NCBI GenBank assembly: GCA_033439255.1 | Contig: CM065881.1 | Location: forward strand, 1,240,001-1,304,000 | Source: Hericium rajendrae | Lineage: Eukaryota; Basidiomycota; Agaricomycetes; Russulales; Hericiaceae | Direction: 5' to 3' | DNA length: 64,000 nt | In this document: one piece after another, positions 9,084 to 59,435 of the stretch | Layout: each line of letters starts with the position of its first letter | How positions within the stretch are numbered: the stretch's first letter is position 1 | Made by a program: the position numbers and the translations under genes | The notes under the pieces: generated by a model | Told to the model about the DNA's origin: nothing | Databases searched by the model: none | The model's input: the letters and a program-made list of their open reading frames with translations, nothing else

Positions 9084-10216
9084 TTATGCACGCCCCATCT
9101 GAAGCTCGTGCCATTCCCAACCCGGAGGCAGATTCATATATCGGAATCGCTCTCGTTCTTGCAGATGCCTTCCTTCCAACGCATTGGACTCATAATCGAA
9201 CTGCGGATCTGGCGAGTGACGCGGATCCGTCAGCCAGGTGCCATGCTCCGCCGCGTAGGGTGTCACAGACGTAGAAGACCCATCATCTAGATCGTCGTCT
9301 TCCTGTCCGTACTCCGACTCGCGCCCTTCAAAGGGCCTGGATAGAGTCTCATAGCGGTGCTGGGGTGAGATTGTGTGCCAGGTCTCTCGTATCTCGTGGA
9401 TGGTGTGGTGGACCTCGTGAATTGTGGTTTTATGTTCTTGGCCAGGGCATTGGACGAAAGACTGGGCCCTAAAGGGTGTAACCTGATCGTCGCGAAACCT
9501 CAAGGAATTCGGCAAAGCTTGGGCATGGCCATGATGGAAAGGCTGCATATAACGATGTAGCTTCAGTCGCTTGCCAGACGGACAGGAGAAATCAGCCGAC
9601 CGGATAGTGACCCAACTCGCGTCGGTGCATCTCTTCAACTTCCTCGCGAGCTGGGTTGATCGGAGGCTGTTCGCGATCGCGCGTCAAACGCGCCCTCATC
9701 GTCGTTCGGAGATCGCGCAGGATGTCGAGGTTCGCCAGAAAGACTTCAGAGTCGAAATCGGACGTTGTTTGGACTTCGTCATGAAGCTCCCTCATCAATT
9801 GCTCGGTGTCCAGCCTCATGCCCGGATGGCGCATTTCCCATCCTCTGCGCTGCAGGAGATCGAGCTGGATGATCTTTTGAGCTAACTTGCCAGTCGAGAG
9901 AAAGTCGAAGATCTCTTGGTCCGGTTGGTGCTACAATATGACGGGGCGAGCGAGGCGCCAATGATAAGTCAAGCGCTCTCAGCTCGGCATGAGTGAATAA
10001 CTCACTACAACAGGACGCGGTATATATGAAGGACACGGGCTCTCGTCGATTTCGGCGGGCTGCCGGTTGAGATGATACCAGGTACGAGGCATTTGGACGG
10101 ATTGCTAGGCGGGAAGAAGAATGAGTTGGGATGCCTAGGCGTCCCCAAGCTGAGAGACGATGACGGCCAAGACTCACATCGTTAGTGATGGGCATGTGGG
10201 TCCACGACTCTGGCAT
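9084..10216 (-). CDS. Stand-alone RHPG-module protein (adaptor-like, no caspase domain)
   Basis: Proposed exons on the minus strand: 10216-10178, 10104-10009, 9930-9640, 9569-9084 (about 303 residues). The first three junctions keep phase 0 as in the related gene at 13090; the 9639-9570 intron (GTTGAA donor) is the least certain. The module WEMRHPGMRLDTEQLMRELHDE is the same one that precedes the caspase fold in the genes at 34827, 41131 and 15352, including the flanking predicted helices. Here it is followed by a hydrophilic tail (IHEVHHTIHEIRETWH, then an Asp-rich stretch) and no SGHG or CHSGG motif. A TATA-like ATAAATAC lies on this strand at 10298-10291. It could be an adaptor or decoy partner of the clustered caspase-like proteins; that is inference from the shared module and location. 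Confidence 0.6.
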
Positions 10217-13089: not shown

Positions 13090-13857
13090 TCATTGGATAT
13101 GAGGGCTGCGTTCTCGGGGCGCGATATCGTCGTCGGACGTGCTCAAAGTTTCTGTTGTAGGATCGGTCGCTAAGTGCGCATCCTGTATGCAGGTCTGGAA
13201 TGAGCGTTCGCCAACGCTGTCATAGTTCTGCAGGCAATAATGCATATCATAAGTATCCCAAGTAATGGCAGAAGAAAAATCAACCAACCGTCGGTGAACT
13301 TTCATCAACGGAGTCGACTGGGGATGTTTCGCGAGCAAGCGCTGACTGCTCCGTTATTGTCTCTCGTAGATCGTGGGCTCTTTCAAGCAAAAGCCGAAAA
13401 ATCTGGGAATGGATGTTCGAAGTTGCGTCAACTTCATCCTCGATCTCCCTTAGTAATTGATCACTGTTCAGCTCTGTGCCCGGATGACGCATCTCCCATG
13501 CTTCTCGCTCCAAATGTTCAAGTTCTTTAAGCAGAGTAATGTCCCCAGCTAGCATTTCACCTGAGCAATGGGTGGACAGTTGGTGATCAGATGTTCGTTC
13601 CTACGACAAGATGGATAGATGTAAGCAAAGACCGGTCTCGATCTGCATGAGATGAAGATGCACCTCAACAGGTATCTGTATATATATGCGACGGGGCGTC
13701 AGACGTGTTTCGTAGGGCTGCCTGGGTGAGGGTGATCTGGTAGGCTCCACAGACGTAGATTCCTGGAAGGTAAGAATGTATTAGAGCGTCTCCATTTTCG
13801 ACATGAATATTAGTCCTGACATACCTCGAGGATGGGCATCATGCGCCTGCAAGACAT
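13090..13857 (-). CDS. Short stand-alone RHPG-module protein (adaptor-like)
   Basis: Proposed minus-strand exons 13857-13825, 13762-13664, 13600-13289, 13227-13090 (about 193 residues), all joined in phase 0 with introns of 61-63 bp. The second exon is Pro/Arg-rich; the third carries WEMRHPGTELNSDQLLREIEDE, almost identical in pattern to the module in the neighbouring gene at 9084 and in the caspase-like genes. The protein ends with a short acidic tail (TSDDDIAPRERSP) and has no caspase catalytic motif. The 5' exon is assigned from position and phase only; Met at 13842 or 13839 are alternatives. It is divergently placed from the broken caspase-like gene at 15352. A role as adaptor or decoy is inferred. 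Confidence 0.6.
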
Positions 13858-15179
13858 TGGTATCTCTGTGATCGACTGCATCTCTTGAAAATGAGACTCT
13901 CGCAGCATTAATCGGAGCATTTAAGGGGTCTGGGGGTACAAGAAGGGAACAATGTGTGGCTTTGACCATGAACGGCAGGAGCATTTACAACCCTGAAAAG
14001 TCAGCGGCGCCAAAGAAAGCGATGACAGGAATATAAGGAGTGCGTACTTGCGTCTATGTAGCCCTACATAGCCCCACCAAAGCGTAACAGGTGTGCGTTA
14101 TTGTCTTAGTATGCTGATATAAAGGCCGCACGCTTTGTCCTTAGTTGGTTGGTTTCCCTGAGTTACCTGCTTGACAATTGCGACACAATGGGAACAATAG
14201 GAATACAATAGTATATCCTAGAGACATCGATTCACTTCGTGTCTGCCTGTGAGAATCCATCATCGCCTCTCGATGCCTTGTATCCAGAATTCCCGAAGGC
14301 CAGCGACGCAAGTCGGCCATCCGTCTTGCTGATCGTCGTCGCTTCTTCGTCGTGCTGTGGCAGTACTTCTGTGTATCAGGCCAGTACTACATATGCCGCG
14401 CAGGCTGGTTCTTCTTGAATGCGACCAGGCACGATTCCTTGAAACCGATAATTTATAGAACAAAAGCAAAGCTCACAGAAGGCATGGAGACCATTCATGG
14501 CAAGAGTTACACGTACGATTCAGGACGACCATGTGCCATAACAATGGCTATACTAAACGCCGTGCTGTTGCTGTGCCGAATGCTGCCGAACTCCGCGTTT
14601 ATAGTCCCCGGGATCGCGACATTGAAGTGCCCTACTTACTAGTAGCAAGTGTCGTTTCAGTTCTTTTTGTCGACATGCATCGCCTCGAACAGAAGACGTT
14701 CTACCGCAGACGTCCCCAAGAGAACAACTTATCTATCAATTTCTTGCACGTCTAGTGGATGCCCTACCTTGAATCTTGGCATGAAATGGTAAATTTGTAC
14801 CGTCAGTTACCTTCGGTATCCAAGACAGGCAACCTTCGAGCTCTTTAGCCCTCAGGCGCAAAGAGCTGGAGATGCAATAGACTACGCCATGTTTAAACAG
14901 GTGCGCTATACACCTGTTGGACCTATGATCTGGCCCTCTTACTGTTGGCTTTGTGTTACATTATAGGGATTCAACGACGAATTAGCGGCGCGTGAGAACG
15001 GCCGATGACGTCGACGACATTGAGAATTTGGACAAACAATTGTCCTGAAGCGCACATACCTGTACGTGCTCGAACACCGGTGATACAAAATCAACCAGCG
15101 CTTGCGAATCACAGCAACTCATGTATCACAATAGCATCAATGTACGCGGCGTACTTTTTGGAAGACAGCTACGTAGACA
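13858..15179. other. Intergenic between divergent family members
   Basis: Separates the minus-strand stand-alone module gene from the plus-strand caspase-like gene. Around 14100-14190 it resembles 10480-10570. Open frames such as that near 14352-14642 have no supporting splice or domain evidence. Confidence 0.5.
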
Positions 15180-15351: not shown

Positions 15352-15671
15352 ATGCAGTCGAGATCAATCACCAACCTGGCTGCACCTGTTGGACAAGGGT
15401 CGTTCACCAAAGAACCTATCATGGTGCGTTCATTATCTCAGATATCCCAGCATGGCTCAAGTACTAACCCTTGATTATCCTTCTATCATATCTAGGACCA
15501 GTCTGTCACGAACCAGAGACTCGACCCTAAACTCCTGAACAATAGACTGCTTGAACAAATTGCTGATTTCGGACACATGGAGCAAGGATTATGGGAGGAA
15601 CGCCACCCAGGTACCGAATTGGACAGAGACCTGTTGAAGAAGGAGCTCGAGCACGAGGCGGACTGTACCGG
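15352..15671 (+). pseudogene. Caspase-like gene broken by three transposons, segment 1 (N-terminal module)
   Basis: Exon 1 is 15352-15423 (24 codons), intron 15424-15495, then exon 2 until the first insertion. Exon 2 holds the module WEERHPGTELDRDLLKKELEHE. The Ty3/Gypsy element starts at 15672, directly after ACCGG. Joined at the duplicated target, the reading frame continues without change at 23200. This is the 5' end of a gene whose other parts lie at 23200-23767, 26280-26816 and 29904-30459. Confidence 0.85.
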
Positions 15672-15835
15672 TGGAGTAGGGATAGAAGGGTCAGAGAGAG
15701 CGAGATAGAGGCGATTACGCCACTTCAGAGGGTGATTAGTCAGCATAGATAGATATTCGCTATCGACATGTATAGCAGACATCCTTCTACTACATCATAT
15801 ACCAAGTGAGAGTTCCTCCCTCTGGGACTACTCCA
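15672..15835 (+). repeat. 5' LTR of the Ty3/Gypsy element
   Basis: 164 bp, TGGAGTAG...CTACTCCA. Matches 23036-23199 except for one A/G difference (CGCTATCGAC here, CGCTGTCGAC in the 3' copy). The primer-binding site should start just after 15835, at TCTTGGTGATGAGAG; I could not match it to a particular tRNA. Confidence 0.95.
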
Positions 15836-15861
15836 TCTTGGTGATGAGAGTGGTTTTCGAC

Positions 15862-15965
15862 CCATCTGCGTAGCGTCTGCGTCCTGCTGCTTTTTTTCTG
15901 CGTCTGCGTTCTCCTCTGCGCCTGTGTCTGCGTCCGTGTCTGCATCAGCGTCTGCGTCCGAGTCC
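15862..15965. repeat. Degenerate TCTGCG repeat in the element leader
   Basis: Repeated GCGTCTGCGT and TGTCTGCGTC units fill about 100 bp between the 5' LTR and gag. The region is open on the minus strand but has no domain, so I treat it as untranslated leader. Confidence 0.6.
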
Positions 15966-16090
15966 CGCGTTTGGATTCAGCGCCTTTCCCCAGCGCCCAA
16001 CTCAGTGTATTGGCGCCTTGCGTGATAGGTCGGTCGCGTGGTTTGCTGCGTGTATATCGCGTGTTTTGCTGCGTGTCTGCCCGCAGGTAA

Positions 16091-18097
16091 CAGACACCAA
16101 CTTGCTCGCATCCCCAGTCAAACTCCAAACTGTATTCCCCCGAACAACGAGTCAAAACGGGTCGACGACGCCTCAAAAACGGCCAGTTCGCGCCAACCCT
16201 AGCTCCCCGTTCAGAAGCCCCGTCACCATCAGATTCCCCTGTATCGTCGGGATCCTTGCTGCTCGATATACCGACACCGTCCGAGCTTGGTTCCGCAGGC
16301 GACTCCGCCTTCGAATCTCTCAGCGCATCTGCCTTATCCGACCTTCTACGTGGCCGCCCCACGACACGCCGGCATTCAATCAACGCGAGTGACCACCCGC
16401 ACGGATACATCGACCTCGATCAGTCGTTGCGCAACTCACCCGCAACGTCTACGAGGAGTCTCGAGGATCAGGAGCCAGCCGACGAGTTCATACTGCCAAA
16501 CCCCTTCGTAATCAAACGAGAAAGCAGCGTCACCAGCAGCGTCGCCAGCAGCATCGATCTCAAACCCTTCCCCACCAAAGTCCCCAGACCTACGAGAGCT
16601 GCGTCTACGTCGCAAAAGACCATCGCCTCCACCAGTGCTTCGCTATCTCGACCGGTCAAGACTTCGCCGAGTGCCGCTTCGAGCCCAGCCATATCGACCA
16701 TCCCCCACGTACCCGCACGAGTCCTACAGCACTTTCTACACCCACACACGGTACTGCCGAAAGCTCCCGCGCCCGTTCCCATCCCTCGACCCGTGCATCA
16801 TCCAGGCATGGCAACACCGGACGACAAGGCATTCTTTCGGGGCGACGCCGATGACAAGGTCAGCCATACGAACTTCATGCACTTATTCCGCCATCGGATG
16901 TTGGACCGCGGCACGCAGAACACGGGCGCCGCGTGGATCGACGCGTTCCAGGACTACATCGATGCCGACTCCCCAGCCGAAGTGTGGTACAGCGGTCTGT
17001 TAACGCCCGAGCTTACGGACTGGACCAAGTTTCAGGCGGCCTTTCTTGCGAGATGGCAGCCGATTCAGACAGCGACGAAGTCACCGGCGGACTGGGAGCG
17101 GGAATTGTTGGAATACCAGCTGCGAGAGGAGGAGCTGTTGCTGAAGGAGAAGGACGGCAGCCGGGAGGTTTACACGCACGTGCGCTGGGCGGCGCATGTG
17201 TTAGATTTAGCAGGGAGGGCCAACATCGCGTCGAGCTCCAACCTCATTTGGCTCGTTCGCGGTAAGTTGCCCGAGTTGGTGAAGGAGTTCGTCTCGGAGA
17301 CCCACGCAAACTGGCCCGCGTTCTGCAAGGCAGTAACGGACCTCGATGTGGGAAAGATACGCGACCGCCTGGAGGCCAAGCGGGCGCATGCCGCAGAGAT
17401 CGCGGCTCTACGCTCCGAGCTAACGCAGCTGCAGGCGCAAGTGTCCAGTCGACCGACCGCGGCAAGTCTCGCTGCGCAGTTCCAGCGCATGTCATTCCAG
17501 GCAAACCCGAGCCCAGCAGCGCCTGAGATACGCCGTGCCCCAGCAACAGCACCAAACGTACCGGTGCAAGCCGCGGAGCAGAGGCAAGAGCGGGCAGCTC
17601 CCGTCCGGCCACACCCCACTACGCGACCAGTCAACGCATTCCAACCCACACGCACGCAGCTCACGCCGGAACAACGCAATACGCTCCGCGCTGCGATCAG
17701 CAGCATGCCACAACACCCGGACACAGAGGCAGGCCGCACGGCGTACTTCGCGCAGCTAACCGCATTCGAGGAGCAGCATGGCGTCAATCCGTTTATCGAC
17801 GAAACCAGACCTGTCCCCTTGCGACCAGGGACAAGTCCGGTACGCAGTGGCGAATGCTTCAGATGTGGTCTCCAGGGCCATCGGGCTGGCGAGTGTGAGC
17901 CGGAGCCAGGCCGACTATTATCGCGCAACGAAATTGTCTGGCGATCCTTCTGTGCGCGGGAGCTGGGGATAGACAATGCCGCACAAGCACGGGTTCAACT
18001 CGTCATACCGGAGACGTCTCACAACAATCGTCTTTCGTGGGACGAACAGATGGCCCAGGTGGACGACCAGGGAAACGGCATGGGGCTGCTCGCGTAG
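16091..18097 (+). CDS. gag: Ty3/Gypsy Gag with CCHC zinc knuckle
   Basis: Structural capsid/nucleocapsid protein of the retrotransposon. The frame is open from 16091 to the TAG at 18095-18097, but the first in-frame ATG is only at 16809; either translation starts at a non-ATG codon, a leader intron joins an upstream ATG, or the N-terminus is shorter than the open frame. The capsid-like part includes AWIDAFQDYIDADSPAEVW and a coiled-coil stretch near 17370-17440. The nucleocapsid motif CFRCGLQGHRAGEC (C-x2-C-x4-H-x4-C) lies near 17847-17888. It overlaps the pol frame, which is one base back, and a slippery heptamer lies in the overlap. Confidence 0.85.
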   Translation, partial: QTPTCSHPQSNSKLYSPEQRVKTGRRRLKNGQFAPTLAPRSEAPSPSDSPVSSGSLLLDIPTPSELGSAGDSAFESLSASALSDLLRGRPTTRRHSINASDHPHGYIDLDQSLRNSPATSTRSLEDQEPADEFILPNPFVIKRESSVTSSVASSIDLKPFPTKVPRPTRAASTSQKTIASTSASLSRPVKTSPSAASSPAISTIPHVPARVLQHFLHPHTVLPKAPAPVPIPRPVHHPGMATPDDKAFFRGDADDKVSHTNFMHLFRHRMLDRGTQNTGAAWIDAFQDYIDADSPAEVWYSGLLTPELTDWTKFQAAFLARWQPIQTATKSPADWERELLEYQLREEELLLKEKDGSREVYTHVRWAAHVLDLAGRANIASSSNLIWLVRGKLPELVKEFVSETHANWPAFCKAVTDLDVGKIRDRLEAKRAHAAEIAALRSELTQLQAQVSSRPTAASLAAQFQRMSFQANPSPAAPEIRRAPATAPNVPVQAAEQRQERAAPVRPHPTTRPVNAFQPTRTQLTPEQRNTLRAAISSMPQHPDTEAGRTAYFAQLTAFEEQHGVNPFIDETRPVPLRPGTSPVRSGECFRCGLQGHRAGECEPEPGRLLSRNEIVWRSFCARELGIDNAAQARVQLVIPETSHNNRLSWDEQMAQVDDQGNGMGLLA

Positions 18098-18115
18098 AAG
18101 GAGAGCAGGCAGCCC
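18070..18115 (+). promoter_or_regulatory. Programmed -1 frameshift signal between gag and pol
   Basis: The heptamer G GGA AAC at 18070-18076 is in the correct phase for gag (codons CAG GGA AAC). Six bases downstream, GGGCTGC (18083-18089) can pair with GCAGCCC (18109-18115); a second, overlapping pairing is CTGCTC (18086-18091) with GAGCAG (18103-18108). The gag stop is inside the loop at 18095-18097, and pol lies in the -1 frame. Heptamer, spacer and stem together match the classical retroviral arrangement. Confidence 0.75.
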
Positions 18116-21100
18116 ACAGAGCATCCGAATGGGGAGGTGCGGAAGTCCTTGCGGTGGGAGCGGCGCAGCGTGAGGACGGGAGGAACAGGCCCGCGAACAT
18201 GACAGCATGTACTTTAGATGCGACAGTTTCGACTGCGAATATCGACGTCATTGATCTGTATGCGGTGGACGTGGGTCCAGTGTCAGCGCGGGCGGCGGAA
18301 AGTACGCCATTCGTACACGAAGTGGTCGTTCTCGGACCCAATGGGGAAAAGGTCCGAGTGCGAGGCCTCTTCGATGACGGCGCCATGGTAGGGGCCATGT
18401 GCGTCTCCGTCTTCCGAAAGGTCCAACATCGTCTTACCAATTGGGGCCCTTCGCGACGAGTTCTACGAATGGCCAATGGTTCCCGGGTACCATCGCAGGC
18501 AACATGGCGAGGCATGGTGGAATTAGAAGGGGTTCGAGCAGAGGGTGAATTCGAGGTCTTTGATAGCGGCGGCGGCTGGTCGTTCCTATTCGGGAAACCG
18601 CTTCTGGTTGCTTTTCAGGCGCAACACGATTACACACAAGACATCGTACAGGTCTCAGGCAACAACGGCACGGCTGCGCTCCGCAACCAGCTGAAGAGCC
18701 CACAACATGCCACGTTTTCGCAGAAGACAAGTGCGAACCTCGTGCTGGATTGGAAGCAGTGGACACTGTTGGCGGGGGGAGTGAATCCCCCCTCGAGGCG
18801 AGTCTCTGAACCAACTGACGGGAGCCTGTGTCGCATCGCTAACCATTCGTTGCTCGACATGGCCCCATCCGCGAGCATGAACAACCCGACCGGAGACTCG
18901 CCTGCAGCGTCTGCAAGTCACATCGTGCAGAGTGCTTGGATCGAAGAAGTGGAGAGTCCAGAGCCGGAAATGCAGGAGCTGCCACGGGGGGATGTCGAAT
19001 CCCCCTCCAGGGGAGTCCCCACTCCTATTCCGTCGAGCGCGCATGAGTTCACTGACACCAATCACCACGGGCCAGCACACACTGAGCGACTTGATCACCG
19101 AGTGAACACGATAGTGACAGATGCCGCGCCAGCAGGAGGAGGAATTCGAGCAGTAGGGGTCGGCGAGACAGGAGCAGCGGAATGCAATAGGACAAGGACA
19201 GAGCCCGTCACGGCGGAGGGGGTCAAAGACGACGCACGGGGCATATGGCATGAGGAGGCAAAGCGCATAACAGAACGGGGGAGTAGTAGCGCACTCCCCT
19301 CGAGGGAAGTCCCACCGCATCCCAGTTCTGTTTCACAGGCATGCCTTATTGACCCCAAACCTCCATCAGACAATGCAGAACAGGATGGACACGCTAGGCA
19401 ACATCTGCGGCAGGTCCAAATGGAGGAGGTCGTGGACGAGGATCAGGACATATTGCACACAGAGGCAACGCGCACAAAAAATCGGGGGAGTAGTAGCGCA
19501 CTCCCCTCGAGGGAAGTCACACCGCACCCCAGTTCGAACGCCCCAACGTGCATTATTGACACCATACCTTTATCAGAGGACATGGAGCCGGGCATCGAGG
19601 TCTGGGCGATTGATGCAGAGAATCCGAAGCCATCCATATACACGCGCCTTACGGATCCGCACAATCCAGCGCGAGTTGAAGAAGTGCTGCGCCGCATCAC
19701 CATAGGCACGGACCTCTCCACGGAGGAACGCGAGCAGGTCGTGGCGCTGCTCACCGAGTTTGCAGATTGCTTCGCGTTGTCCGTCGGCGAAGTGAAGCCA
19801 GCAGATGGCGCAGAGCACAAGCTCAATATCCCCGAGGATGCAACATTCTCAGTCAAACCGCGCCAGCGCCCACTCACGCCGCCCCAACGTGCTTACCTCA
19901 ATACAAAAGTCGACGAAATGCTGGAGGCCGGGATCATCGAGCACGTACACCCGTCCCAAGTCAAGGCGGTATCGCCCACCACCCTGGCACAGAAAGCGCA
20001 CGAAGGCGGCGGTCTCACGCTCGATGAACTGCAGCAGCGTATCAATGCCGAATGCGTGGCTGCGGGCTTGCCATCTATGTTCGACGCCCCAGCCCCTACG
20101 CCATCTGCACCCGCACCGCCTCGTGCTGACTTGCCACAAAAATGGCGAGTATGTCAGAACTTCAACGAAGTCAACAAGGTGACCACTGTTGCAGCCATGC
20201 CCCAAGGCGATATTCGCATGAAGCAGCAAAGCTTAAGCGGTCATCGATACGTCTCGGTGTTCGACTTCGCATCCGGGTTCTATGCGCTCACCATGCATAT
20301 CGACTCACGTCCATACACCGCGTTCTATGTCGAAGGCCACGGCTACTTCTGGTATCTGCGCATGCCATTCGGCATGACCGGAGCACCTGCGTCGTTTGCG
20401 TTCGTCACCGGCATCCACATGCACGACTTGATCACGGCCCAGATAATGGAGTTATTCGTCGATGATGGTGGCGCTGCAGCCGACACGTTCAGCGAGATGA
20501 TGGGGAAGTTGCGCACGATTTTCATGCGGGTCCGCGACCGTAACTTGTCGTTATCTGCCGACAAGTCCTCCTTTTTCATGACCGAAGCGGTCTTCGCAGG
20601 AGCACGTGTTGGCCCTACTGGTGTCTTACCAGATTTGTCAAAGCTCACTGCCGTGGTAGACTGGCAACCTCCGCGCGACGCGTTAAACCTCGTTTCCTTC
20701 CTCGGGCTGACGGGTCACTTCAGGGACTTGGTGAAAGATTATGCCTACATCGAAGCTCCACTGCGTGATCTGCTCAGGCCTGTCCCACTCCCGCCGCAAT
20801 CCTCAAAAAGCACGTACCGGCGTATCATGGAAGGCTTTAAGCTCGCGGACCACTGGGGATCTGCACACACTGCTGCGTTTTTACAGCTGAAGGCCGCGCT
20901 CACAGCTGAGCCGGTTTTGCGTGGACCGCGGTGGGACGGTACGCCGTTCACTGTCACATCAGATGGATGTCAAGATGGGTTCGCGGCCGTGCTTACACAG
21001 GAATTTGAGTATCAACTTCCGAATGGCCGTCGAGTTCGCAAGAAGCACCCTATCGCCTTTGCCTCAAAACGCACATCTGCATCCGAGGAGAAGTACAAAC

Positions 21101-22908
21101 CGTTCCTGCTCGAGTTCGCCGCCCTCAAATTTGCCCTCGACAAATTCTCGGACGTTGTATGGGGCTTTCCGATCATCGTGGAGACGGACTGCCAGGCGCT
21201 GCGGGATGTGCTCCTCAGCGATGGGCTCAACGCGACTCACGCACGTTGGCGGGATGGGATCCTCGCTTACCAGATCATCAACGTACGCCATGTGCCTGGC
21301 AAACTTAACGTGGTCGCGGACGGTCTCAGCAGAAAAGGGGAGGGCATGCCAAAGAGCAACGGCGACGGCAGCGAATGGACCGTCAGCGAGGATTGGGAAG
21401 TCTCGCGCGGCCTCGTTAATGACGTTATGGCATTGTCCGTGGAGGCCGACCCCGTATCAACGGTCTTGCGTGATCGACTTAAAGCTGAGCCAGTGTTCAT
21501 GGAGGTCCTGGATGCGCTAACAGGGACTTTCAACCAGAGCACTCGGCTACGGGACAAAAAGAAGGCCAAGCACCATGCGTCGCAATACCTAATCCAAGAC
21601 GGACGCCTCTGGCGAATAACGGACGGGCGGGCAGTGCGCGGCAGACCGAAGCTGGACTGCGTCACACGGGAGGAAGCCAAGTTGCTCGCGTACGAGCAGC
21701 ACGTCACTGGCGGACACTGGGGGCGTGACAGCGTCAAGGTCGCCCTGATGGATCGCATCTGGAGCCCCGGCCTTGACAGGTCAATCATGGATGCGATACG
21801 GGAGTGCCCACAATGTAAGAACTTCGGCGCGCCGCACATACATGCTCTCCTCGAACCGATCACGCGGCGGCATGCATTCGAGCTGATCGTAGGAGACTAC
21901 TTGACGATGCCGAAGGGGAAAGGCGGGTATTACACCATCGGACTCTACCTTGATACCTTCTCCCAGCACATATGGGCCTTCAAGTTTGCATCCAGCGGCA
22001 CCGGGAAGACGACGGTTGACTCCCTGCGGCATATCTTTGCAGGCTTCATCGTACCCGAGGTGTTCATGTCTGATGGGGGTTCGCATTTCAAGTGCAAGCC
22101 CGTTCGCGAGTTCTGCGAGAGCTGGAAGGTCAAGCACCACGTCGTCGCAACCTATTCACCATGGGTTAATGGTCTCGTCGAGGGTGCTAACAAGATTTTG
22201 CTCCATGTCTTAGCGCGCCTAGCTGCACCCGGGCTTGGCGAGGATGAGTACGAGGCCATGGATGAGGCGGACATTCCAAAGCAATGGCCCGAGCACCTGG
22301 ACGAGGCCATACGTATTCTCAACAACCGCTTGCTACCGGCGTTGAAATACTCACCGAAAGAGCTCCTTTTCGGGTTGGTCTTGAACACGCCACCCTCATC
22401 ACTTGCGGAGGCCACATCCGTGCTGCGGACAGGCGACATTGACACGCAAATGGCTTACGTCGAACAACAACGCCTCGACGGGTACGCAGCCATCGTCGCT
22501 CATGCTCTACGTCGCAAGACGGCATTCGACAGCCAACTGCGCCAAAAGCACCCGGGTGAAGTTTTATTCTATCCTGGTCAACTGGTACAGATCTACCGCA
22601 GCGACTTGACTACCTCGCTCAAATCCGAGCGCAAAATCCTGCCCAAGTGGTCTGACCCCTGCCGCGTCTCGTACCAAATGCGGAACGCGTACATCCTAGA
22701 GACGACCGACGGCGCGCCGGTCACTGGCCCCATCAGCGCGAGGCGACTGCGCGCCTTCACACCGCGGGCAGGATCCTTATTGGAGGAGGCACAGCGGGTA
22801 TTCATGGAGCGGATCAGAGAGGAGGCAGAGCGGACAGCGCAGGCAGCGAGAGAGCCGGCGGAGGATGGCATGACGGAGGGTGAACAGGCAGCGGAGGTGG
22901 TATCTTGA
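18077..22908 (+). CDS. pol: Ty3/Gypsy Pol polyprotein (PR-RT-RNaseH-IN)
   Basis: Expressed by -1 frameshifting from gag; about 1,610 residues. The aspartic protease region has GLFDDGAM, with DDG in place of the usual D[TS]G. A 0.9-kb linker (about 18.8-19.6 kb) contains repeated RGSSSALPSREV units. Reverse transcriptase shows LRMPFGMTGAPASFAF and the catalytic LFVDDGG near 20452-20471. RNase H shows TSDGCQDG, an EFAAL helix and ETDCQAL. Integrase shows an HHCC finger (H...H...CPQC, near 21690-21815), then VGDYL, MSDGGSHF and NGLVEGAN, the D, D and E of the catalytic triad. The C-terminal segment with PGQLVQIYRSDL resembles the GPY/F type. No stop or frameshift is visible, so the element may still be active. 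The variant protease triad is its main oddity. Confidence 0.95.
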
Positions 22909-23023
22909 GGGGCCGTTGCAGGGTCAGTGAGGCGGACAGACGGGTTGGACAGGTCGGAGATTTAGGGTCGGATGGCTGGTTGGTTTCGGTCAGATGCAGG
23001 CGACGAGGGCGCCGCCACGTTTG

Positions 23024-23035
23024 ACGGGGGGATGA
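23024..23035 (+). promoter_or_regulatory. Polypurine tract of the Ty3/Gypsy element
   Basis: ACGGGGGGATGA directly precedes the 3' LTR, the expected place for plus-strand priming. Confidence 0.7.
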
Positions 23036-23199
23036 TGGAGTAGGGATAGAAGGGTCAGAGAGAGCGAGATAGAGGCGATTACGCCACTTCAGAGGGTGAT
23101 TAGTCAGCATAGATAGATATTCGCTGTCGACATGTATAGCAGACATCCTTCTACTACATCATATACCAAGTGAGAGTTCCTCCCTCTGGGACTACTCCA
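23036..23199 (+). repeat. 3' LTR of the Ty3/Gypsy element
   Basis: 164 bp, one mismatch to the 5' LTR. Followed by CCGG at 23200-23203, the second copy of the target sequence. Confidence 0.95.
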
Positions 23200-28315: not shown

Positions 28316-28349
28316 GAAGAATCTTGCCCAAATTTGGGCAAGATTCTTC
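28316..28349. repeat. Perfect 34-bp palindrome
   Basis: GAAGAATCTTGCCCAAA at 28316-28332 is followed at once by its exact reverse complement. A diverged version (AAAGAATGTTGCCCAAAT) lies near 27213-27245, so the sequence around it is repeated within the same element. Confidence 0.9.
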
Positions 28350-47198: not shown

Positions 47199-47685
47199 TG
47201 TAACGGATGGTTTATCAGTTACTACTATAGTCTTCTACTTTCTTACTCTTTTCTACCTGGCTTACTTTTCGAGTTTTGCAGAGTTTCCTTATTAGGATAG
47301 CTGAGTTTGAATCATGTACTTAGAGCGGATTTCCTTATTGGGAATAAGCATCTATCTTGCCAACTCACCACCATCTGTCTGCTTTTGTCTCAGTCTCTGC
47401 TTGTTCTCCTCATATCTGAAAGGTTCTCTTGGGATCCAACCCTCAAAGGAAGGTGTGTGGCCCCCAAAACCCTCATCAGGAGGTCTATATCTGCTGCTGG
47501 CCCTCAGAGGAGGTGCCAGCTCATCACTCATCTGCTTGGCTGCAGGACTGAGGCATCCTCGGTTCTGTTAGCTCTAGCTCGTGGACTCTCTCTAGGAGGT
47601 CTACGACACCTTTATACCCTCCTCACTCGCTCGCCTACCTTGGACTTCCTGGGCAGTAGCGGCTCGACCTCTATCGTCCGTTACA
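47199..47685 (+). repeat. Left LTR of the 5.1-kb element
   Basis: 487 bp with 8-bp inverted ends TGTAACGG/CCGTTACA. No difference from 51846-52332 noticed on reading. Confidence 0.93.
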
Positions 47686-50600
47686 AAGGTGGATACATCC
47701 GGAAGTCCACTTGTCTCTGGCTGGCTGGTGAGGACTTCACATGTCTCATTCAGTTCCCCTCTCCCTGGACGTGGCATCCATGTCCAGGTTCCTTATCTCA
47801 AGTGACGATGTCAAGTCGTCTTATCGCCATTCGCTGGAGAGCCGTGTTCTCGCTCTCCGGTCTCATTCCTTTGTCGACAGTGATCTTGTCGACAATGGGC
47901 TTGGTATCCAAGCCCATCGATTTCAGATCAGGGAGCCCTTGCTCCATTTTGCCTTAGAGGTCACCGAGCAACTTCAATCGTCGCTCGATCAAGTCTGGTT
48001 TTGCCTGCCATACCCCCCAAGGTCTGTCTTCATGGTCGACAGGGATCTCGTTCTCCGTTCCTGTCTCCATGGGTCACCATCTCCCTGGGACGTTCGCTGG
48101 GCCTGGCGCACATTACAGGCACGAGTCGCCGAAGGTGTCGATATCCTATTCCGGTATGCAGGTGCTCTTCCTCCTGCCATCAAGACTCCTCCTCCTCCTC
48201 GAGTTGAGAACCTCAGGGACGTGGAATCCATGTCCCTGGCAGTCCCAGGAGCTCCCTACCTTCGCATAGAACATGTCCCATGTGTTCTCCAGCCGCTGTC
48301 TGTCGACGCAAGACTCGCTCGGCCATTCCAGGCCTCCTCCTCCTCTGGGCAGCTCCCTGCCTCTGGCTCCTCCTTCGGCCCAATTCTGGCTGCTTGGAGG
48401 GCCCTATATGCATCTCTAGTCCTCATAGAGATGCTTTGCTTTGTTGCCCTATCAACAGGGCCTCGCCTCAAGGAGTCCCATGCCGAGGAGAGGGTCAGGG
48501 AGCCTGGTAGTTCACCCCCTCTCTAACTCTCTCATTTCTGGATGGATTCCCTCGGTTTCTTTTGTATCCTATTCGCTTTTCAAACGCTTTCCACCTCGCT
48601 TCAAGTCCAGGAGGCTGGGGGGGCTGTAGATCGCTGAGATCAGGCTCTGCCAGGCGATGTAGGGAGGTTTTGGACGCAAATCGTGCTTTGTACGTTGCCC
48701 CTGCTCCTTGAATCGCTCCATAGTCCTCTTCTCCTTCTCAAACGCTTTCGAACGAGCCCAAGAACGTCTCAAGCGCTCCAGCGGTTGTCAAGATATCTTC
48801 ATGCTCTCCTCATCCTCCCTCTGAAGCGAAATTTCACTGTATTTCCTCCAAATTTTCTTCTATTCCTTCGAAACTTGCTCCGTGGAATCCATGGAGCATT
48901 CGTTACACCTTCGCATAACCGCTTTTACCCTGGGAGAAGACCCAGCTCATCAAATCTTCGCCATAGCTTATCTCCTATGGCCAGACTATATTGGGGCTCA
49001 TGAAGTCAGTTCTTCGCCGATCCTTATACGGACAGGACGCCTCGATTCGGACCATCCACATGAATCCAACGAGCCCTTGCACGAGCTGATTGGAGCCCTA
49101 CTTCCCATTTCATCGGCGATCCTGCTCTGCCTGGAGGAGAGATCATATTGCACTGCTGTATCTCTCCTTTCCCTCTATCGATTTGGAACCGGGTTTTTGC
49201 ATGTCAATGTGTGCCTTTAGGACCGTTCCGCTCGCCAGGACACTTCTCAGAGTGTCCAGCCATCCCCTTGGAATCCGAGGGTATCAAGGACGCTTCCTGG
49301 TGCGCTAAGATGGCCATAGCGTGGCGCCTATGCTAGCTATGACCAAACGGACTTTTGGCCCGAGTTCGCGTTGCAAATACGCTTCGAACAAGCCCTCATA
49401 CGTCCAGATCCGACCACCGGTTCTCATTATGCTCGAGGGGCTACTCACCCTGCTGCCCCTCCTGAGTGCCAGCTGGTATCTCCCTTAATACTGGACCGAT
49501 TTCGAAGCGGTCTTTTGCACTCGACTCGCATTATTGACCCGGTACCAGAGCACCAAAACGATTTGAGGGACGTCCAGCCGTTCCTCCGGAATTGTGTCCA
49601 TAGTCCAGGGGATTCCCCAGGCAGCCCCAGCTCCATATCTCCGTGACCAGGGGTGCTATCAACAAGCGGTTTCTTGTCATCTATTCCTTTATTTCACCAT
49701 ATCCATTCGTCTTAGGACCAGGAGGCTGGGGGGGCTGCCAATGGCCGGACTTGGGCGACCCTGGGCGATGTAGTGGCACTTGGATGAAGCTCTGTGGTAT
49801 CCACTGGAGCTTCATTCCTCCTGTTCTTCCTACATTCAGCCTACCCTTTGCAAACGCTTTTCAACAAGCCCAAGATTGGGCTGATTGGTCCAGCCGTTCT
49901 CAAGATCGAATCATCTCCTCTTCCTCCTCCCTCTGGGGCGAATTTTCCTTGTATCTTCTTCAATTCTCCTCCAATTCTTTCGAAACCTCTCTCGGTGGAA
50001 TCCACTGAGAATTTGATTTCGTATTCCTGCATTTGTTCTGCCCTGAGAGGCCCCTTTCTTCGCCATCTCTCTGGCCCTGCCTGCTCTTCAGGCCAGACTT
50101 ATCTCTACACCCAAGGCCGAATATCCAGCGGATTGTCAAACGGTTTGGACGCCCACATTTGCGTTTCTAATGCGATTCCAACAAGCCCTCATACGACCTG
50201 ATACGACCAGCCATTCCCATTCCACCTATGGGGCCACAGCCTCTGGGAAGGGCCCAGACTGCATATCCATATCTCTGCTGTCCGTGGACCAATTCCTAAG
50301 CAAATTTTTGCATCTGGACCGCAATAATCGTCGTATTCTGGGACACCCAAAACATCTCCAGGAGCACCATCACATTCCGTTGGATTCCAATGGAACAGGT
50401 GGCGCTCTTGGGTGCCTTAGAAGGCTTGTAGCGCTCGATCCACATGCGCTATCACCGCAAACTCTTCTGTCCCTTAGCATGTTCATAAAAGGAATTCGAA
50501 CAAGCCCCCAATCGTGGTTATCCGCCCAGCCGTTCCCATTCGACCTTCGCCTGGCTTTTGCAGCTAGCCATCCTCCCTATCCTGCCACATCTCCTTCGTT

Positions 50601-51845: not shown

Positions 51846-52332
51846 TGTAACGGATGGTTTATCAGTTACTACTATAGTCTTCTACTTTCTTACTCTTTTC
51901 TACCTGGCTTACTTTTCGAGTTTTGCAGAGTTTCCTTATTAGGATAGCTGAGTTTGAATCATGTACTTAGAGCGGATTTCCTTATTGGGAATAAGCATCT
52001 ATCTTGCCAACTCACCACCATCTGTCTGCTTTTGTCTCAGTCTCTGCTTGTTCTCCTCATATCTGAAAGGTTCTCTTGGGATCCAACCCTCAAAGGAAGG
52101 TGTGTGGCCCCCAAAACCCTCATCAGGAGGTCTATATCTGCTGCTGGCCCTCAGAGGAGGTGCCAGCTCATCACTCATCTGCTTGGCTGCAGGACTGAGG
52201 CATCCTCGGTTCTGTTAGCTCTAGCTCGTGGACTCTCTCTAGGAGGTCTACGACACCTTTATACCCTCCTCACTCGCTCGCCTACCTTGGACTTCCTGGG
52301 CAGTAGCGGCTCGACCTCTATCGTCCGTTACA
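51846..52332 (+). repeat. Right LTR of the 5.1-kb element
   Basis: 487 bp, same as the left LTR; followed by GTGAC. Confidence 0.93.
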
Positions 52333-53001
52333 GTGACCACTTTGATGGTGCCAAGGTTCAGGCCGTCATGAATGTAGGACCCAGCGGTCTCATTGATGAA
52401 GGGTCGGATGAGCTACGGATGTACAAAGTGAGGTCAGGCACGGAAAATACGGCTGAAACGGATGTGGATGGAAAGCTCACCACATTGGCATCGGCACGAA
52501 GCTCATCGAAACGGCGTTGGCCGCCGGCAAGGATAACCATGAGCTCATGGAGTCCGACAGCCTGGTTGTGTGCTATGTCGTCGAGCTCGAGATGACCAGG
52601 AGAGACTGGCTGAAGGGCGATGTGCTGCTTGACGTGGGTGCGGTCATCGATCTGTACGATAATAGAACGTCAGTGGGGAAATAATAAGGATGACAGACGG
52701 CAAGACGGAGACGTACAACGGCGTCAGGCAAGCAGGCACCTGCAGCTCCAACACGTGTGCCGTCGGCATGCGAGGCGACATTGCCGACCAGGAAGGCGAC
52801 GAACTCGCGTTCGACGGGGCGGTCGCCGGGACGTTCTCCAGGAACGATCTCGTAGAGGAGGCGATGGTTCGAATACGAGTTCATGGCGCGCGGCACAAGA
52901 GAACGGCCAGCGACGGAATCTTCATGCACGAGGAAGCGCGGAGAGCTGTCGACCTGCTGGACGAGGGCGACATAGGCATCAGAAATGGCATCCGTAGACA
53001 T
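52333..53001 (-). pseudogene. Unknown gene carried in the nest, 5' part
   Basis: Starts at the minus-strand ATG at 53001 (MSTDAISDAYVALVQQVDSS), continues NSYSNHRLLYEIVPGERPGD and VAFLVGNVASHADGTRVGAA, and after an intron IDDRTHVKQHIALQPVSPGH, then GLHELMVILAGGQRRFDELR. After another intron it reads NLGTIKVVT, where the LTR element is inserted. Joined with 46266-47198 it would be an intron-containing protein of several hundred residues. The even, well-kept codons suggest a once-functional gene. No catalytic motif is recognised. Confidence 0.6.
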
Positions 53002-53128: not shown

Positions 53129-53241
53129 GTCGGGGCGGGACGTCAGGGTCGGGGCGGGACGTCAGGGTCGGGGCGGGACGTCAGGGTCGGGGCGGGACGT
53201 CAGGGTCGGGGCGGGACGTCAGGGTCGGGGCGGGACATCAG
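53129..53241. repeat. 18-bp tandem repeat, about six copies
   Basis: GGTCGGGGCGGGACGTCA is repeated head to tail about six times with only one visible change (GACATCA in the last unit). It lies upstream of the unknown gene. Confidence 0.95.
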
Positions 53242-53905
53242 GGTTGCATTGTATGTAGTTAGGGACGGTGACGTGTGCCGTGTAGATGAGCTGTATTGTG
53301 AGGCCGAAGGTCGGGAGAGCATCATGCAATTGTTATGACAAAATCTGCATTGTCGTATGTCAGTGCTCGTCATGATGAGGAACTCCAAGCATACCAAATG
53401 CAAGGGCTTGTGCTGGACACAATTTCTTGTGATTGTAGAAGAGACGAGCAGCTGATCGGTATAGCCAATACCGACGAGTCTTGTCCCTCTGTTGACCGAA
53501 TAGGAGGCTGAGCGAGGGACGGAGGTGACATGAGGCAGGAGGGCTGCCGCAGATAAGGACTGGGGAGTGTCTTTGGTCGCGCATGTGTTTTTTCTCCTCA
53601 TTTCTTCATACGCACGACACCACACCCGATGCTATGGAAGTGTCAGCGAGGACGTGCATTCCCTTCGAGCCGCTCTTGGAACATCTGGATGACGAAATTC
53701 GTGGTGAGCAGAGGAACTGTGATAGGTTGACATGGCACGGTGTGGGAGGCGCAGTCAACGCCGAACTTCGGCAGGGAGAGCATGCCCGTTTCGAAGGCTT
53801 TCCCGGAAAGCGGGAGATCTTCTGTTGCCTCGGTGACGTCGACTTCGACGACTTCCGGTACTTCGCGGATGGCGGATGGACTGCGGGCGACGGGCACGCG
53901 TTTGC

Positions 53906-55685
53906 TGATGCTCGTAGGGCGTAAATGATCTTGGAAGCCACCAACACCATGAGGAAAGAGAGTTGGATATATTTTAGGAAAAAGTTCTGGGTCAATAAAC
54001 TCATTAGCAGGACGAGCATCATGCGGAATTTGCAAATAGCCACGTTGATCCTCTTTTACATGTCTCAAAGCGGCGGCGCGAAGTTCATTCGCAGGTGCAT
54101 GAGCGTCAACGTCTGCAATGACAATGTTGTCAAATGGCACTTGATCACGGCAAGCGTTCGTGTCTTCATCAATATGGCTGAGCTCATTTGAAAGTGACGG
54201 CTGCATGGGATCATATCCAGAGGTAAGCGTGTCCGTCGAAAGCGAGGAATTAACATACTCAATATGCACGGGAAGAGGTCCATCCTCAGGGAATTCACGA
54301 AGGCGGTCTTCTGACATGGAGATGTCACGGTACAATGGATTGTTCGCCTTTAACCATAGCAAAGCACTCCGCACTTTATCGCGCCGAACAGCGAGCGGAT
54401 GTGCATGCTTCAGCAGCCAATCACGATCAGGAGGCTTGGAACCGACGAAAAGAATGCAAATAGGATGAAGTACGTCTTCCATAGACGGAGGCAGGATGTC
54501 GGCAATCACGTCAGGTCGCTGTGGGTAAATGACGATGTGGCCACGCATGCCACGCTGTGCATTAGGACTGCTCACCAATCTATTCTCTTCATTCATCTGA
54601 ACGATGGAGCACTTCGCTCGACACAATGCAATCATACTTTCTTCGACGACAGTCAATTCTCGCAGAACATCTGGAACAGGGCCTAATGCAAGATGATTTG
54701 CCATCGATAGCGCAGGCACCTTTCCTCGACTCAACGCGGATGTACAGAGCATGCAGAGCATGAAAGTGAGATCACCGCAATCGTCGACATAAACACCCGA
54801 AGGTGAAACAAGTACGTCTTTCAAAGGGCCGTCAGTATACGCCCGACTAGTATGCGGTGCACCGGGCCAGCGGAGTAGAGACAAGTCGATATCCTTGACC
54901 TTGACATCTCGTCGGTCAGAACAAAGCGTCGATTCACTACAGGCCGCACAGGTAAAGGACGCGAGACTATGTTTGGAAGTGCGCTCACGAAAGAGCTGAA
55001 CAAGCTTTTGTTTTAATTCGGGGCGTGCTTGCTGCGGCCAATGCTCACGGATAGCTGTACGGCGACTGCGAAGCAACGTATGCTCTTCATCGCGCCTCAG
55101 CCGACGGTAGTTAGCTTGACGTTTAGTATTAGCAGTGCGGACACGGGCAGGAGTAAGCTTACCCTTATCAAGTAAACGGAGGTGATTCTTTACTATCCGC
55201 CTAAGGCGACTCAAAGATGTCCCAGGTTCGTATGTAATACCATACATATCCATGAGTCTTTGCAGAGGGAGTCTATTGATACGAGGCAGCCACTGACGAA
55301 GCAAAGCGAGTTGTGCAGCAGTGAAGTCAGAGTTTGAATTGACATCGCACATTGGGCTGTTGCCATCCGCATCAGCAAGAGCCTGAAGATCAGAATCAGT
55401 AATGATGTCATCGTGGCCAGAAAGACATCTGCAACATCCACTGCTAAGATGGCGCAACAATCCTTCACGGATGTCAGTGATTGTTAAGTTATGATGCAAA
55501 CCATGCTGCCGTGCTAGCTCACGCAGACGAGGAAGGCGAAGCCCGTCGAGTGAGTTTATGACGTCGAGGAGCGGAAAGGATGAGGTAGAGGCAATGCCGT
55601 TACCGAGAGCTATGCATGAATGATAACAGCACATGACAGCGCAGCATGGACAACAATAGTTGGCAATAAATAAATATTCCCGCAT
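53906..55685 (-). pseudogene. Helitron protein, N-terminal part with DUF6570-like region
   Basis: Minus strand, open from 55685. Cysteine-rich start, helical stretch (LPRLRELARQHGL), then CAACSESTLCS, LLRWPGAP, LTFMLCMLCTSALSRGKVPALSMANHL, VPDVLRELTVVEESMIALCR and MRGHIVIYPQ, the order found in DUF6570 regions of Helitron proteins. It ends in LFPKIYPTLFPHGVGGFQDH, which in related proteins leads straight to the F-x-R-x-V segment found at about 46265. After that, unrelated sequence follows down to 53643. It is the first half of the gene whose second half is 43950-46265. Confidence 0.82.
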
Positions 55686-57129
55686 GGGACAGCAACGAAA
55701 GATGCAACAAGGTACGGGGCGACAGTAAGTGAATATCAGCTATGGCTATAACGAACGGCAGGAAGGAAAGACGCACCAGAGGACGAGGAACCAACGTCGT
55801 CGGGAGCGCAATCTGTCTGCATGCCGATAGATAGATGAAAGGTAAGTATGGAAGAGGGCGAAAAGGACAATAGTCAGTGGCGGTTGGTCAAGTGGAAAGA
55901 CACAAGTAACGTTTAGGAGAAACGGACAGCGGAACGTCATCAAAGACGGAAACCTAACCTTTGGCGTGTACGGCGGGCCGGTGGAAGCTGAGCATGTGGC
56001 TCCGTCGCTGCGGCAGACCGCACTAATAACGTCTGAAAATCGGACACTGCGGAAGTTTTGTAACACAAACAAATGACGCATTCGAGTACAGGATGATATA
56101 ATGGGTCTCTACGTAAAAAATCTAACGCTGCGCAGGCGATTTGGCGTCAGTGCAGCAACATATTGAAGGGGTGGTCAAATAGGCGGAATGGAGCGACGAC
56201 AGTGACGGGCGTTTGCCGAGAGGGGAGCACAGCCACTGAACGTTAATTTTGAAAGAGCAACGGAGTGACACATTCGACATCTAAGACCCACTACCCAGGG
56301 GGTAGCGGGAATCACACTCGGCGACCAATTCTCTTTCCAAAGTCGTTCCTGACTCAGACAGACGATCCTGAGGTACGAAGTGTTGAGTCTCGTCTACTCT
56401 GCCTCTGGGAGACTATTCCTGACTACGATTCGGTATACAACATCGACAAGTTGCATTTCAGCGCCCGTGCGCGACGATGACACCAGTTCGATGCGCTAGA
56501 TAGCGGCTGAAGAGGTCGTGGAACCAGATGAACCGCACTCATAGTATGTACCCATTGCCCACTAATAGCTGTTGCCGACACCGACAAACTTACGACGATT
56601 ACTTATGCCCACTTTATCTCCTGACCATGCCGAACGGGTCCTTGCCCTGAACAAGTAGTTCCTTTGGATGAAGTTCAGCGAAGCGAGGACCGTAGCAAGA
56701 TCTCGAAGTCAAAGTCTCTGCCCAAAGCTCTACTTGCGTGGCAGATCTAACCCTTGCTTTCGAATTCTGACGGGGCACCCTGTGCGCGTGACGGATTGTC
56801 CAATGTGAGTACAGTGGGTGCGCATCTGGCGAGATCGACAGTAACATAATTGCGCTTCCGTCGCTCGTTGTTCTCCGCATACAGTGATTTGTTTGACGTT
56901 ATTAACCTCGGCAGCAAGTATGCATTGTCGGTACTTTGAATCTCTAACACAGTCTTCGCAACAAACCTTCTTTGTACCTCTTCAGGTGCGCAGGTTCCTA
57001 CCGATCTGCCAAAACGGACAATGGTATGTAGTCCAATTTTGGTCACATAACTGTCCTACACGGTACATATCTGTCCACATCCGAAAACAAGGGACACAGC
57101 ATCAGGCGGCACTCGGAAGTTGTAGCGGC
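55686..57129. other. Intergenic, 5' flank of the Helitron relic and upstream of the next gene
   Basis: No supported gene. Short frames lack domains. The Helitron 5' terminus should be here but I could not fix it. Confidence 0.45.
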
Positions 57130-57339: not shown

Positions 57340-59435
57340 ATGCACTCGAGCGTAGCCAGAAAGCTGGCAGCGCGCTCGCGTGCTATGCCTGACTCCGAGG
57401 TATGGATTGATTTGGATCATTGTCAGCCATGGAATCTAACCTTTTTATTTTGCATTAGCCATCAAGCCCTCAAGCGGGTCACAAGAACGCGACGCCCTTA
57501 CCGGGGTCACCGATTCAAGCAAAGCTTGAATTGCGTCATCGCGCCATTAATAGGTCTGTCGCGGTGAGTATCAATTTCTCACTCCGGAAGCCATGTATTT
57601 ATTCAGGTGCTGGGCGGTGGTTGCTTTCCATTCTGCGTTATAGGTCCAATCTTCTGAAGACCACCGGAGGTTTGCGGTTATCAAGAAGAATGGACTAACT
57701 GAACATATGCCGGAAATCCCGGAGACGCGCACGTTGGAGATCCCGTATCCAGACGATGGATCGAGTAGAGAGCTCTCTTTGAGAGAGGTCCAGCATGAAG
57801 GACAGCCTGTCGGAGAATCCTTTTTTCAGAAGTTTTGGCTGCATTTGTTTGCGATTCTCTGGATGAACATACTCAAGCTATCAGTCTCTTTTGTGAAATG
57901 GATGTGGACGGGAGAGAAACAAGGGTGGTGGGAAGAGGAGCCGGGCGCGGCGCAGGTCAGGTTTTTTCTCCGATTGGTCGCCGAACCTGCCTCATCACAC
58001 ATATTTTCACAGCTCCTTTGCAATAGCGCAAGATCATGGGCCGTAATTATCGGCATTAATGACTACCCAGAGGGGTGGGTCACCCTTGAGGGCTCCGTGA
58101 ATGATGCGCATCTAGTGCAGGAATTTCTTGTTGATGATTTGGGGATCCCGGACAGCCATATCGTCCTGCTCACAACTGAGCCACAGCATCAACTTCCGAC
58201 TCGCGACAACATTCTGAAAGCCCTTTACGATCTTCGCGACAATCGTCGTATCAAGTATGACGACGACATCATCATCTACTTCTCAGGGCATGGTTCGCGA
58301 TACAATGCATCTATCTCAGATGACAGGCCCTACTGGGTTGAAACCCTGTGTCCCTGCGACGTCAGCTCTAAAACCCCGCAGATCAGTGTCAGGGAGCTGA
58401 ATCTCATTGTCGAGCAGATAATGGCAACCAAGGGTCACAACGTTGTCGTTATTCTAGATTCCTGCCACTCCGGCGGCCTGGCCAGCAACAGCTCTGACGC
58501 TCCAAACACGTACCTCACAGAGCGAGCCATCACAACCGAGGACACTGCAGATATGAACCCCATGCTCCGCGCCGCCGATCAGCACCCGCGCAAAAAAATC
58601 TGACGCTTCCATATTCACCAAGTTACGGGAGCCGAAGCCGTTTCCATGCGTCTTCATGATGGCATGCAAAGACAGGGAAGTGGCCTTGGAGACCGAGTTC
58701 GATCTGGGAGACTGCAAGCGCAGATACGGTGTGTTCACCTATCTGCTCGTGGAGACGCTCCGGGAGATGGGCGTCGCGGACAGCAGAACGACCTGCGCGG
58801 ACGTCGAGAGGCAGCTCGCGGTTTCGCTCGAGCATCCCATAGAGTCGATCGAGGACGCGCAGAAGGCATCGGCGGATGTACAGCCCGGACCACAGCATGC
58901 CCATATGGCAGGCGACAAGCGGAAACGCAGGCTTTGGTTCCACTTCGACAAATGGCTTGCAACGCATGTTTATATGTCGGTGGCGAAGCAGCTGCTCGAG
59001 CGGCTGGTAAAGACGCTGTGCAGGACGCACGAGTACATTCTCATACCGGACGGCTGTCACGACTGCTTGGCAACGCGCTGCGCCTTCGAGACGCTCGAGG
59101 CGTACCTCGACTTCGCCTTAAACACTGCTAAGCATCAGGAGCTCGAGCCTATTCAGACGAGGCTGCGCAAGATGCGGAATAAATCGGGGCTGGACAGAGC
59201 GCGCAAGCACGAGCTGCAGTCGATGCCGGTCGTGCTGGATCGCTTAGTCGAACAAGGCGGCAAGGACCGCGGAACGCCAAGTCGTCCGTTGCACTTGCCT
59301 TCGGTGACAATGATAATCGATGGCTCTGATGTCCTTGCCTTGGACGATGCGTTCCGGCCGCTGTATTCGAGACATACACTCGACGGCGTCACGCGGCCAG
59401 GTCGAAACGCTCGGAGTCGGCAGCGGAACGTCTAG
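57340..59435 (+). CDS. Caspase-like protein with predicted membrane segment; one frameshift
   Basis: Exons 57340-57399, 57459-57563, 57644-57955, 58013-59435, all phase 0, about 632 residues if one base is discounted. No RHPG module is present; instead a hydrophobic, Trp-rich segment lies at about residues 118-142 (FWLHLFAILWMNILKLSVSF), a likely transmembrane helix. The fold starts at SARSWAVIIGINDY; His in IIYFSGHGSRY (about 252), Cys in VVILDSCHSGGLAS (about 310), both intact. A run of seven A (58592-58598) shifts the frame to a stop just after the catalytic half; with six A the family sequence continues through FPCVFMMACKDREVALE to the C-terminal module TLCRTHEY...GCHDCLATRCAFETL and a long tail. 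Either a recent pseudogene, a slippage site or a sequence error. Confidence 0.75.

Follow-up and report, generated by a model that had tools for sequence, protein, structure and literature searches.

The 64,000-nucleotide stretch of Hericium rajendrae DNA analysed here (C4:1240001-1304000, hereafter the window), part of a 46.8-Mb genome in 19 contigs, carries a cluster of metacaspase-like genes with a small N-terminal module, which by sequence comparison serves as the prodomain in a family of metacaspases that extends over at least eight genera of Agaricomycetes. The explanation that we prefer, to which we give not quite an even chance, is that of a cluster of Agaricomycete prodomain metacaspases whose module-only and catalytically dead relatives act as trans-regulators. 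For mushroom-forming fungi, the cluster offers a concrete candidate case in which metacaspases may be regulated in trans.

A single family of caspase-like ORFs was detected across the window by six-frame self-comparison. The preliminary description of this DNA counted at least six caspase-like copies, and six were located, here named A, B, C, D, E and F; splice models were drawn by eye and then checked for an open frame. In the Pfam searches, Peptidase_C14 was above cut-off on A, C, D and F and on the Hericium alpestre proteins P0001 and P0002, and weak Peptidase_C13 rows were found besides Peptidase_C14 in the cluster proteins. The caspase fold assumed at first is borne out by Peptidase_C14 and can be specified further: for gene C, the copy compared, the solved structures that matched best are metacaspases, with Metacaspase-1 4f6o in sequence (E 2.6e-7) and 9n3f, Arabidopsis metacaspase 9, in fold (E 2.6e-13), and judged from the sequence and modelled fold of C, the catalytic domain is metacaspase-like. 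The catalytic His (SGHG) and Cys (DxCxSG) sites are present in A, C and F; D has GCCHSG, its complete Cys site being GCCHSGG instead of DxCHSGG, and both sites were found in the pieces of B.

The one intact copy with all parts is gene A (41131-43197, + strand), which encodes the module, the metacaspase domain and a C-terminal extension in about 608 aa. Its five exons are located at 41131-41187, 41249-41340, 41396-41732 (module), 41791-43077 and 43144-43197, the last being set by eye against P0001 where the script model chose a different one. The claimed duplicate pair corresponds to the tandem genes C (34827-36258, - strand; exons 36199-36258 and 34827-36107; 446 aa) and D (30858-32303, - strand; exons 32244-32303, 31829-32149 and 30858-31766, with one additional intron required; 429 aa), both of which are module-metacaspase fusions with open frames. 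Exon 2 is absent from C and D, and so is the C-terminal extension with its LCRxH...CxxC motif, which is found in A (~42757-42812), F (~59015-59068) and B (~29988-30076) and is possibly metal-binding. Copy E, a caspase fragment at ~39200-39850 (- strand) in which the module was not detected, is the copy described as decayed. Gene F (57340-59435, + strand; exons 57340-57399, 57459-57563 and 57644 onward) comprises a hydrophobic N-terminal segment, the metacaspase domain and the C-terminal extension. The hydrophobic stretch, recognized by eye, lies where other copies carry the module, and the ORFs of F gave no match to the module profile at E <= 10. F had been called a membrane-type copy with a frameshift; the hydrophobic segment and a frame change near 58600 were both found, but the frame change could be a sequence error, because it sits in a run of A and the full-length relative of F in H. 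alpestre, P0002, stays open across this point.

Gene B (15352-30459, + strand) is caspase-like and lies in four pieces, split by three repeat insertions, and it was rightly recognized as a copy broken by transposons, namely by an LTR element and two further repeats. The 5' part (15352-15671, +) contains exon 1, assigned by eye, and the first half of the module exon. It is followed by an LTR retroelement within the module exon (15672-23199, +) with RT, RNase H and integrase domains; CCGG flanks the element on both sides, and its LTRs (15672-15835 and 23036-23199) are identical at 163/164 bases, so that the insertion is young. The remainder of the module exon, the intron and the first half of the caspase domain with the site AGHG follow at 23200-23790 (+). 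Within the second insertion (23791-26280, +), the segment 24900-26250 has eight further full-length copies in the genome (96-99%), six of which form three pairs about 13.8-14 kb apart; because of this pairing, the second insertion looks like a solo LTR. The second half of the caspase domain with the site DACYSGG (26281-26830, +) is separated by the third insertion (26831-29897, +), a multicopy repeat queried with 27000-29800, from a C-terminal extension at 29898-30459 (+), a homologue of the extensions in A and F that shares 36% identity with A over 94 aa. Its strand and order make the 3' end of B the simplest assignment. Since the LTR element, flanked on both sides by CCGG, cuts the module exon of B, a separate orphan exon is ruled out, and the segment 15352-15671, which had been taken for an orphan first exon, belongs to B as its 5' end.

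Several further features lie between A and F. ORFs with Helitron_like_N and DUF6570 were found at 43501-46536 (-) and 53643-55739 (-), and are perhaps Helitron pieces within the cluster. Two segments, 47301-47954 and 51948-52592, are duplicates of each other (in translation, 97% along 132 aa for one frame and 100% for others), and a 19-bp tandem repeat (6.1 copies, 98%) lies at 53129-53244. About 35 kb to the right of the window, the NACHT domain nearest to it was detected at C4:1338953-1339414; its nearness may be chance, because NACHT has 21 matches genome-wide. A link to NLRs through this site was discarded, the module profile being not significant there (E 1.4, L024).

The module is a predicted three-helix prodomain of about 75 aa, for which no Pfam family was found. 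In the AlphaFold model of the module exon of gene H, a module-only gene discussed below, helices span residues 3-34, 42-56 and 59-87 (mean pLDDT 82.8, pTM 0.59), with a fourth helix of low confidence at 93-106, and three similar helices (4-35, 43-55 and 62-92) were predicted for C (mean pLDDT 83.7 for the whole model). In blocks of ten residues, pLDDT across the module core is 90-97 in the module exon of H and 85-97 in C. Foldseek comparison of the module with the PDB gave no match at E <= 0.001, and therefore no known recruitment fold was recognized for it, a result that does not by itself exclude a family. A profile built from the modules detected six module ORFs in the window with E values of 6e-21 to 2e-32, these ORFs being the profile's own seeds; the same six places were recovered when the results of queries with single modules or with C were pooled. 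In A, B, C and D, the module lies shortly ahead of the protease domain.

The census of the module was based on 161 proteins pooled from protein searches. With a seed profile of 12 module sequences, eight from this genome and four from outside, the module was found in 33/161 (i-E < 1e-3), and in 69/161 after two rounds of iteration. A GHG site stands behind the module in 67 of these 69 carriers, the exceptions being P0018 and the 95-aa fragment P0046, and the median distance from module to protease start is 32 residues in the 48 proteins whose start motif was found. Counts of catalytic sites by regular expression were left aside, since the patterns proved too strict for Mycena- and Candolleomyces-like proteins. 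Carriers with names include proteins of Hericium alpestre, Armillaria, Desarmillaria, Guyanagaster, Mycena, Gymnopilus, Candolleomyces and Amylostereum. In P0051 the module-protease unit occurs twice within one protein, and in Armillaria and Candolleomyces, too, copies may lie in tandem, as is suggested by the consecutive locus tags ARMOST_12264/12265 and H1R20_g12691/g12692. The 69 carriers and the at least eight genera rule out the module as a locus-specific novelty. The earlier idea that it is private to an undescribed system is accordingly abandoned in favour of a prodomain shared by a metacaspase family; what stands is the pairing of a small helical module with a protease that follows it, as seen in A, C and D, and the occurrence of the module by itself, as in the gene models G and H. 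Among the best candidates from single-sequence searches of the genome, the module was not found in any other kind of protein. The prodomain is not described in the available portions of PMC10197012, PMC4986451, PMC13304501 and PMC12881547, and no description was found in the literature searched, which covered few papers behind a subscription and no bioRxiv preprints. A protein of a different make was observed in Phlebia brevispora: P0052 (977 aa) contains two caspase units, the first with YAGYG for the catalytic His site, and no module match at E < 0.01.

A and F have their nearest relatives in Hericium alpestre, which rules out the polypore affinity suggested at first. Counterparts in H. alpestre exist for A and F (full-length) and for C and D (ending before the Cys site as annotated). 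Between A and P0001, identity is 17/19 in exon 1, 23/30 in exon 2, 62/94 in the module exon (66%, plus 19 gap positions), 289/298 in the caspase part (97%) and 129/131 in the extension. For F and P0002 it is 46/54 in exons 1-2, 94/103 at the start of exon 3 and 192/197 in the caspase part as far as the frame change. The corresponding values are 68/74 (module) and 107/115 (caspase start) for C against P0124, and 59/74 and 105/115 for D against P0122. Relative to the protease part, the module of A appears from these comparisons to have changed much faster, the module of D and the N-terminus of F mildly faster, and the module of C not faster.

Comparison of C with D gave dN 0.143, dS 0.752 and omega 0.19 for the module, and dN 0.050, dS 0.298 and omega 0.17 for the caspase part, which indicates purifying selection on both the module and the protease; as omega is about 0.2 in both parts, both duplicates look functional. 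Positive selection on the modules was not seen in this pair. The module differences between C and D avoid the hydrophobic core columns (1/15 against 16/42, Fisher p 0.025). At synonymous sites, C and D differ more strongly in the N-terminal part (42 of ~98 sites) than in the caspase part (56 of ~226 sites; Fisher p 0.0015), and this lower divergence of the protease half suggests gene conversion between the two genes. In the distance tree, C groups more closely with D than with the proteins of H. alpestre, although by a 17-residue linker indel C goes with P0124, and D with P0122. The support of the tree for conversion is weak, because P0122 and P0124 (282 aa each) have unrelated-looking tails before the Cys site, which inflate the distances; P0125, a third H. 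alpestre protein of this kind, likewise has an odd tail.

The cluster had been introduced as fast-evolving, a term that fits the module of A, markedly so, but not the cluster as a whole, since four of the copies (A, C, D and F) have a counterpart in H. alpestre and C and D are under purifying selection. Orthologs under purifying selection, which the preliminary description regarded as speaking against an immunity or self/non-self system, were found in part, namely as these counterparts and in the low omega of C and D. A self/non-self locus of the allorecognition or heterokaryon-incompatibility kind, in which the module gives specificity and a mismatch leads to death, would agree with a tandem cluster with losses, with the contrast between module exon and caspase part in A and between module and caspase start in D, and with the traces of gene conversion in the pair C and D. 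However, the module of C is conserved like its protease part, the module differences of A show no surface bias (3/11 in core and 9/28 in other columns), faulty annotation may account for the gap in P0001, and none of the 20 window ORFs scanned contains an NLR or HET domain. We regard such a locus as distinctly unlikely; an allorecognition role for the cluster is possible, and the data do not require one.

The two proteins said to hold the N-terminal module alone were recovered as the gene models G and H, based on splice models and the module profile. Gene H (9084-10216, - strand), of about 308 aa, has exons at 10178-10216, 10006-10104, 9601-9930 (module) and 9084-9542 (tail), and gene G (13090-13881, - strand), of about 201 aa, has exons at 13825-13881, 13664-13762, 13289-13600 (module) and 13090-13227. 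The plan shared by A, G and H consists of a short exon 1, a short exon 2, the module exon and an intron, followed by the protease in A or by an unrelated tail in G and H. The region between 1 and 15 kb of the window gave module matches only and no caspase match in BLASTP with gene A, for which the threshold was E <= 1e-3; likewise, when C was searched against the genome (E <= 1), no caspase turned up there among the best candidates scored. No Pfam family was matched in G or H.

G and H might be chance open frames around relic module exons, which we consider hardly probable and which is a special case overlapping the by-product explanation given below. It is favoured by the protein search, in which no caspase-free relative of G and H was found except the 95-aa metagenome fragment P0046 and no named module-only protein was found outside the locus. 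It is also favoured by codon usage, in itself a weak test, in which the C-terminal piece of B was read in a shifted frame: the module exon of G has no coding signal (-0.09), so that G could be a relic. The module exon of A has no coding signal in this test either (-0.297). On the other hand, both models consist of four exons, their introns have GT/AG borders and their modules are open, and they share with A the exon order and the intron at the module end. In the same test, the module exon of H scores best of the six frames in its own frame (0.197 bits per codon), and the tail of H is also best of six (0.051), a weak support.

Outside the window, the module was detected at C3:213.4 kb and C10:509.7 kb by single-protein searches and about 50 kb to the left of the window by the profile (L015); all three sites precede a caspase match on the same strand. 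Module-metacaspase copies at C3:212.3-213.6 kb and C10:509.5-510.9 kb are disrupted. The copy to the left of the window (C4:1188.8-1190.0 kb; L006, L015) is a pseudoprotease candidate, with a module ORF in front of an open 356-aa caspase frame that contains SGRG for SGHG and DCSFAH, with Ser at the catalytic Cys position. P0127 of Pleurotus ostreatoroseus has the same replacement of His by Arg, yet its Cys is kept and the tree support is 0.80; therefore, neither common ancestry with the C4:1188.8 kb copy nor a recurrent lineage of dead copies is claimed. As the genome searches score only the best candidates, copy counts are lower bounds: the genome has at least nine copies, and five of the nine found (B, E, F and those on C3 and C10) are broken, in line with the local duplication and decay proposed at first. 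At least three longer caspase genes of another type are located on C2 (two) and at C10:425 kb.

These counts bear on another explanation, which we hold to be quite possible, if less than even: ordinary stress or proteostasis metacaspases in tandem, with the module as a cis-acting prodomain, and with G, H and the dead copy as truncated or decaying by-products that have no role in trans. The five broken copies agree with it, as do the multicopy state of the module-metacaspase family in several other mushrooms, the purifying selection on C and D, and the silent codon usage of the G and A module exons. Against it speaks that G and H retain their four exons, GT/AG introns and open modules, and that the dead copy retains a long open frame despite the loss of both catalytic residues.

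The products of the module-bearing genes are built of a variable short N-terminus, the predicted three-helix prodomain, a linker and the metacaspase domain. In the trans-regulation explanation that we prefer, the prodomain would control the timing of protease activity by assembling, either among its own copies or with some partner. This assembly may be scaffolded by G, H and the dead copy at C4:1188.8 kb, or they may compete for it, in the way of CARD-only proteins and c-FLIP, a likeness by analogy for which no homology is claimed. The output would most likely be a stress or cell-death response. The exon plan that G and H share with A, the wide co-occurrence of module and protease and the open frame of the dead copy speak for this explanation; against it speak the five broken copies, the lack of caspase-free relatives of G and H other than P0046 in the protein search, the codon usage of the G and A module exons, the failure to recognize a recruitment fold, and the missing module of F. 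A bolder version, which we consider unlikely, is that caspase activation in mushrooms runs through a separate system, in which a three-helix prodomain unrelated to the death folds assembles metacaspases, module-only and dead relatives tune the output in trans, and the module of A diversifies as a recognition surface. To our knowledge, no apoptosome-like activation platform has been described for fungal metacaspases.

Fungal and plant metacaspases, for example yeast Mca1/Yca1 and Arabidopsis MC4 and MC9, belong to clan CD, family C14B, are calcium-dependent and are specific for Arg/Lys, and type I metacaspases have proline-rich or zinc-finger prodomains. The cluster resembles them in the protease sequence and fold of C and in the His and Cys sites of A, B, C, D and F, and differs from them in its tandem arrangement, its module-only relatives and a helical prodomain in place of those of type I. 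In fungal CHAT protease/gasdermin and NLR pairs, as far as the available portions of the sources describe them, caspase-related proteases act in cell death and are often clustered (PMC10197012, PMC12881547), and clustered caspase-related proteases are also present here; in the cluster proteins scanned with Pfam, no row was obtained for CHAT, NACHT, NB-ARC or HET. In Armillaria, Mycena, Candolleomyces, Gymnopilus and Hericium alpestre, the 'Caspase domain-containing protein' family (PF00656) has the same module followed by the same protease domain. The present cluster is distinguished from it by the C-terminal extension of A, F and B and by module-only genes, of which the protein search gave none from these genera. 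Animal initiator caspases are accompanied by CARD-only and DED-only decoys and by c-FLIP as a dead relative. The cluster is like them in a functional sense only, with a prodomain protease, prodomain-only genes and a catalytically dead relative, and unlike them in its metacaspase-like protease and, by prediction, in its module, for which three helices are modelled where a death fold has six.
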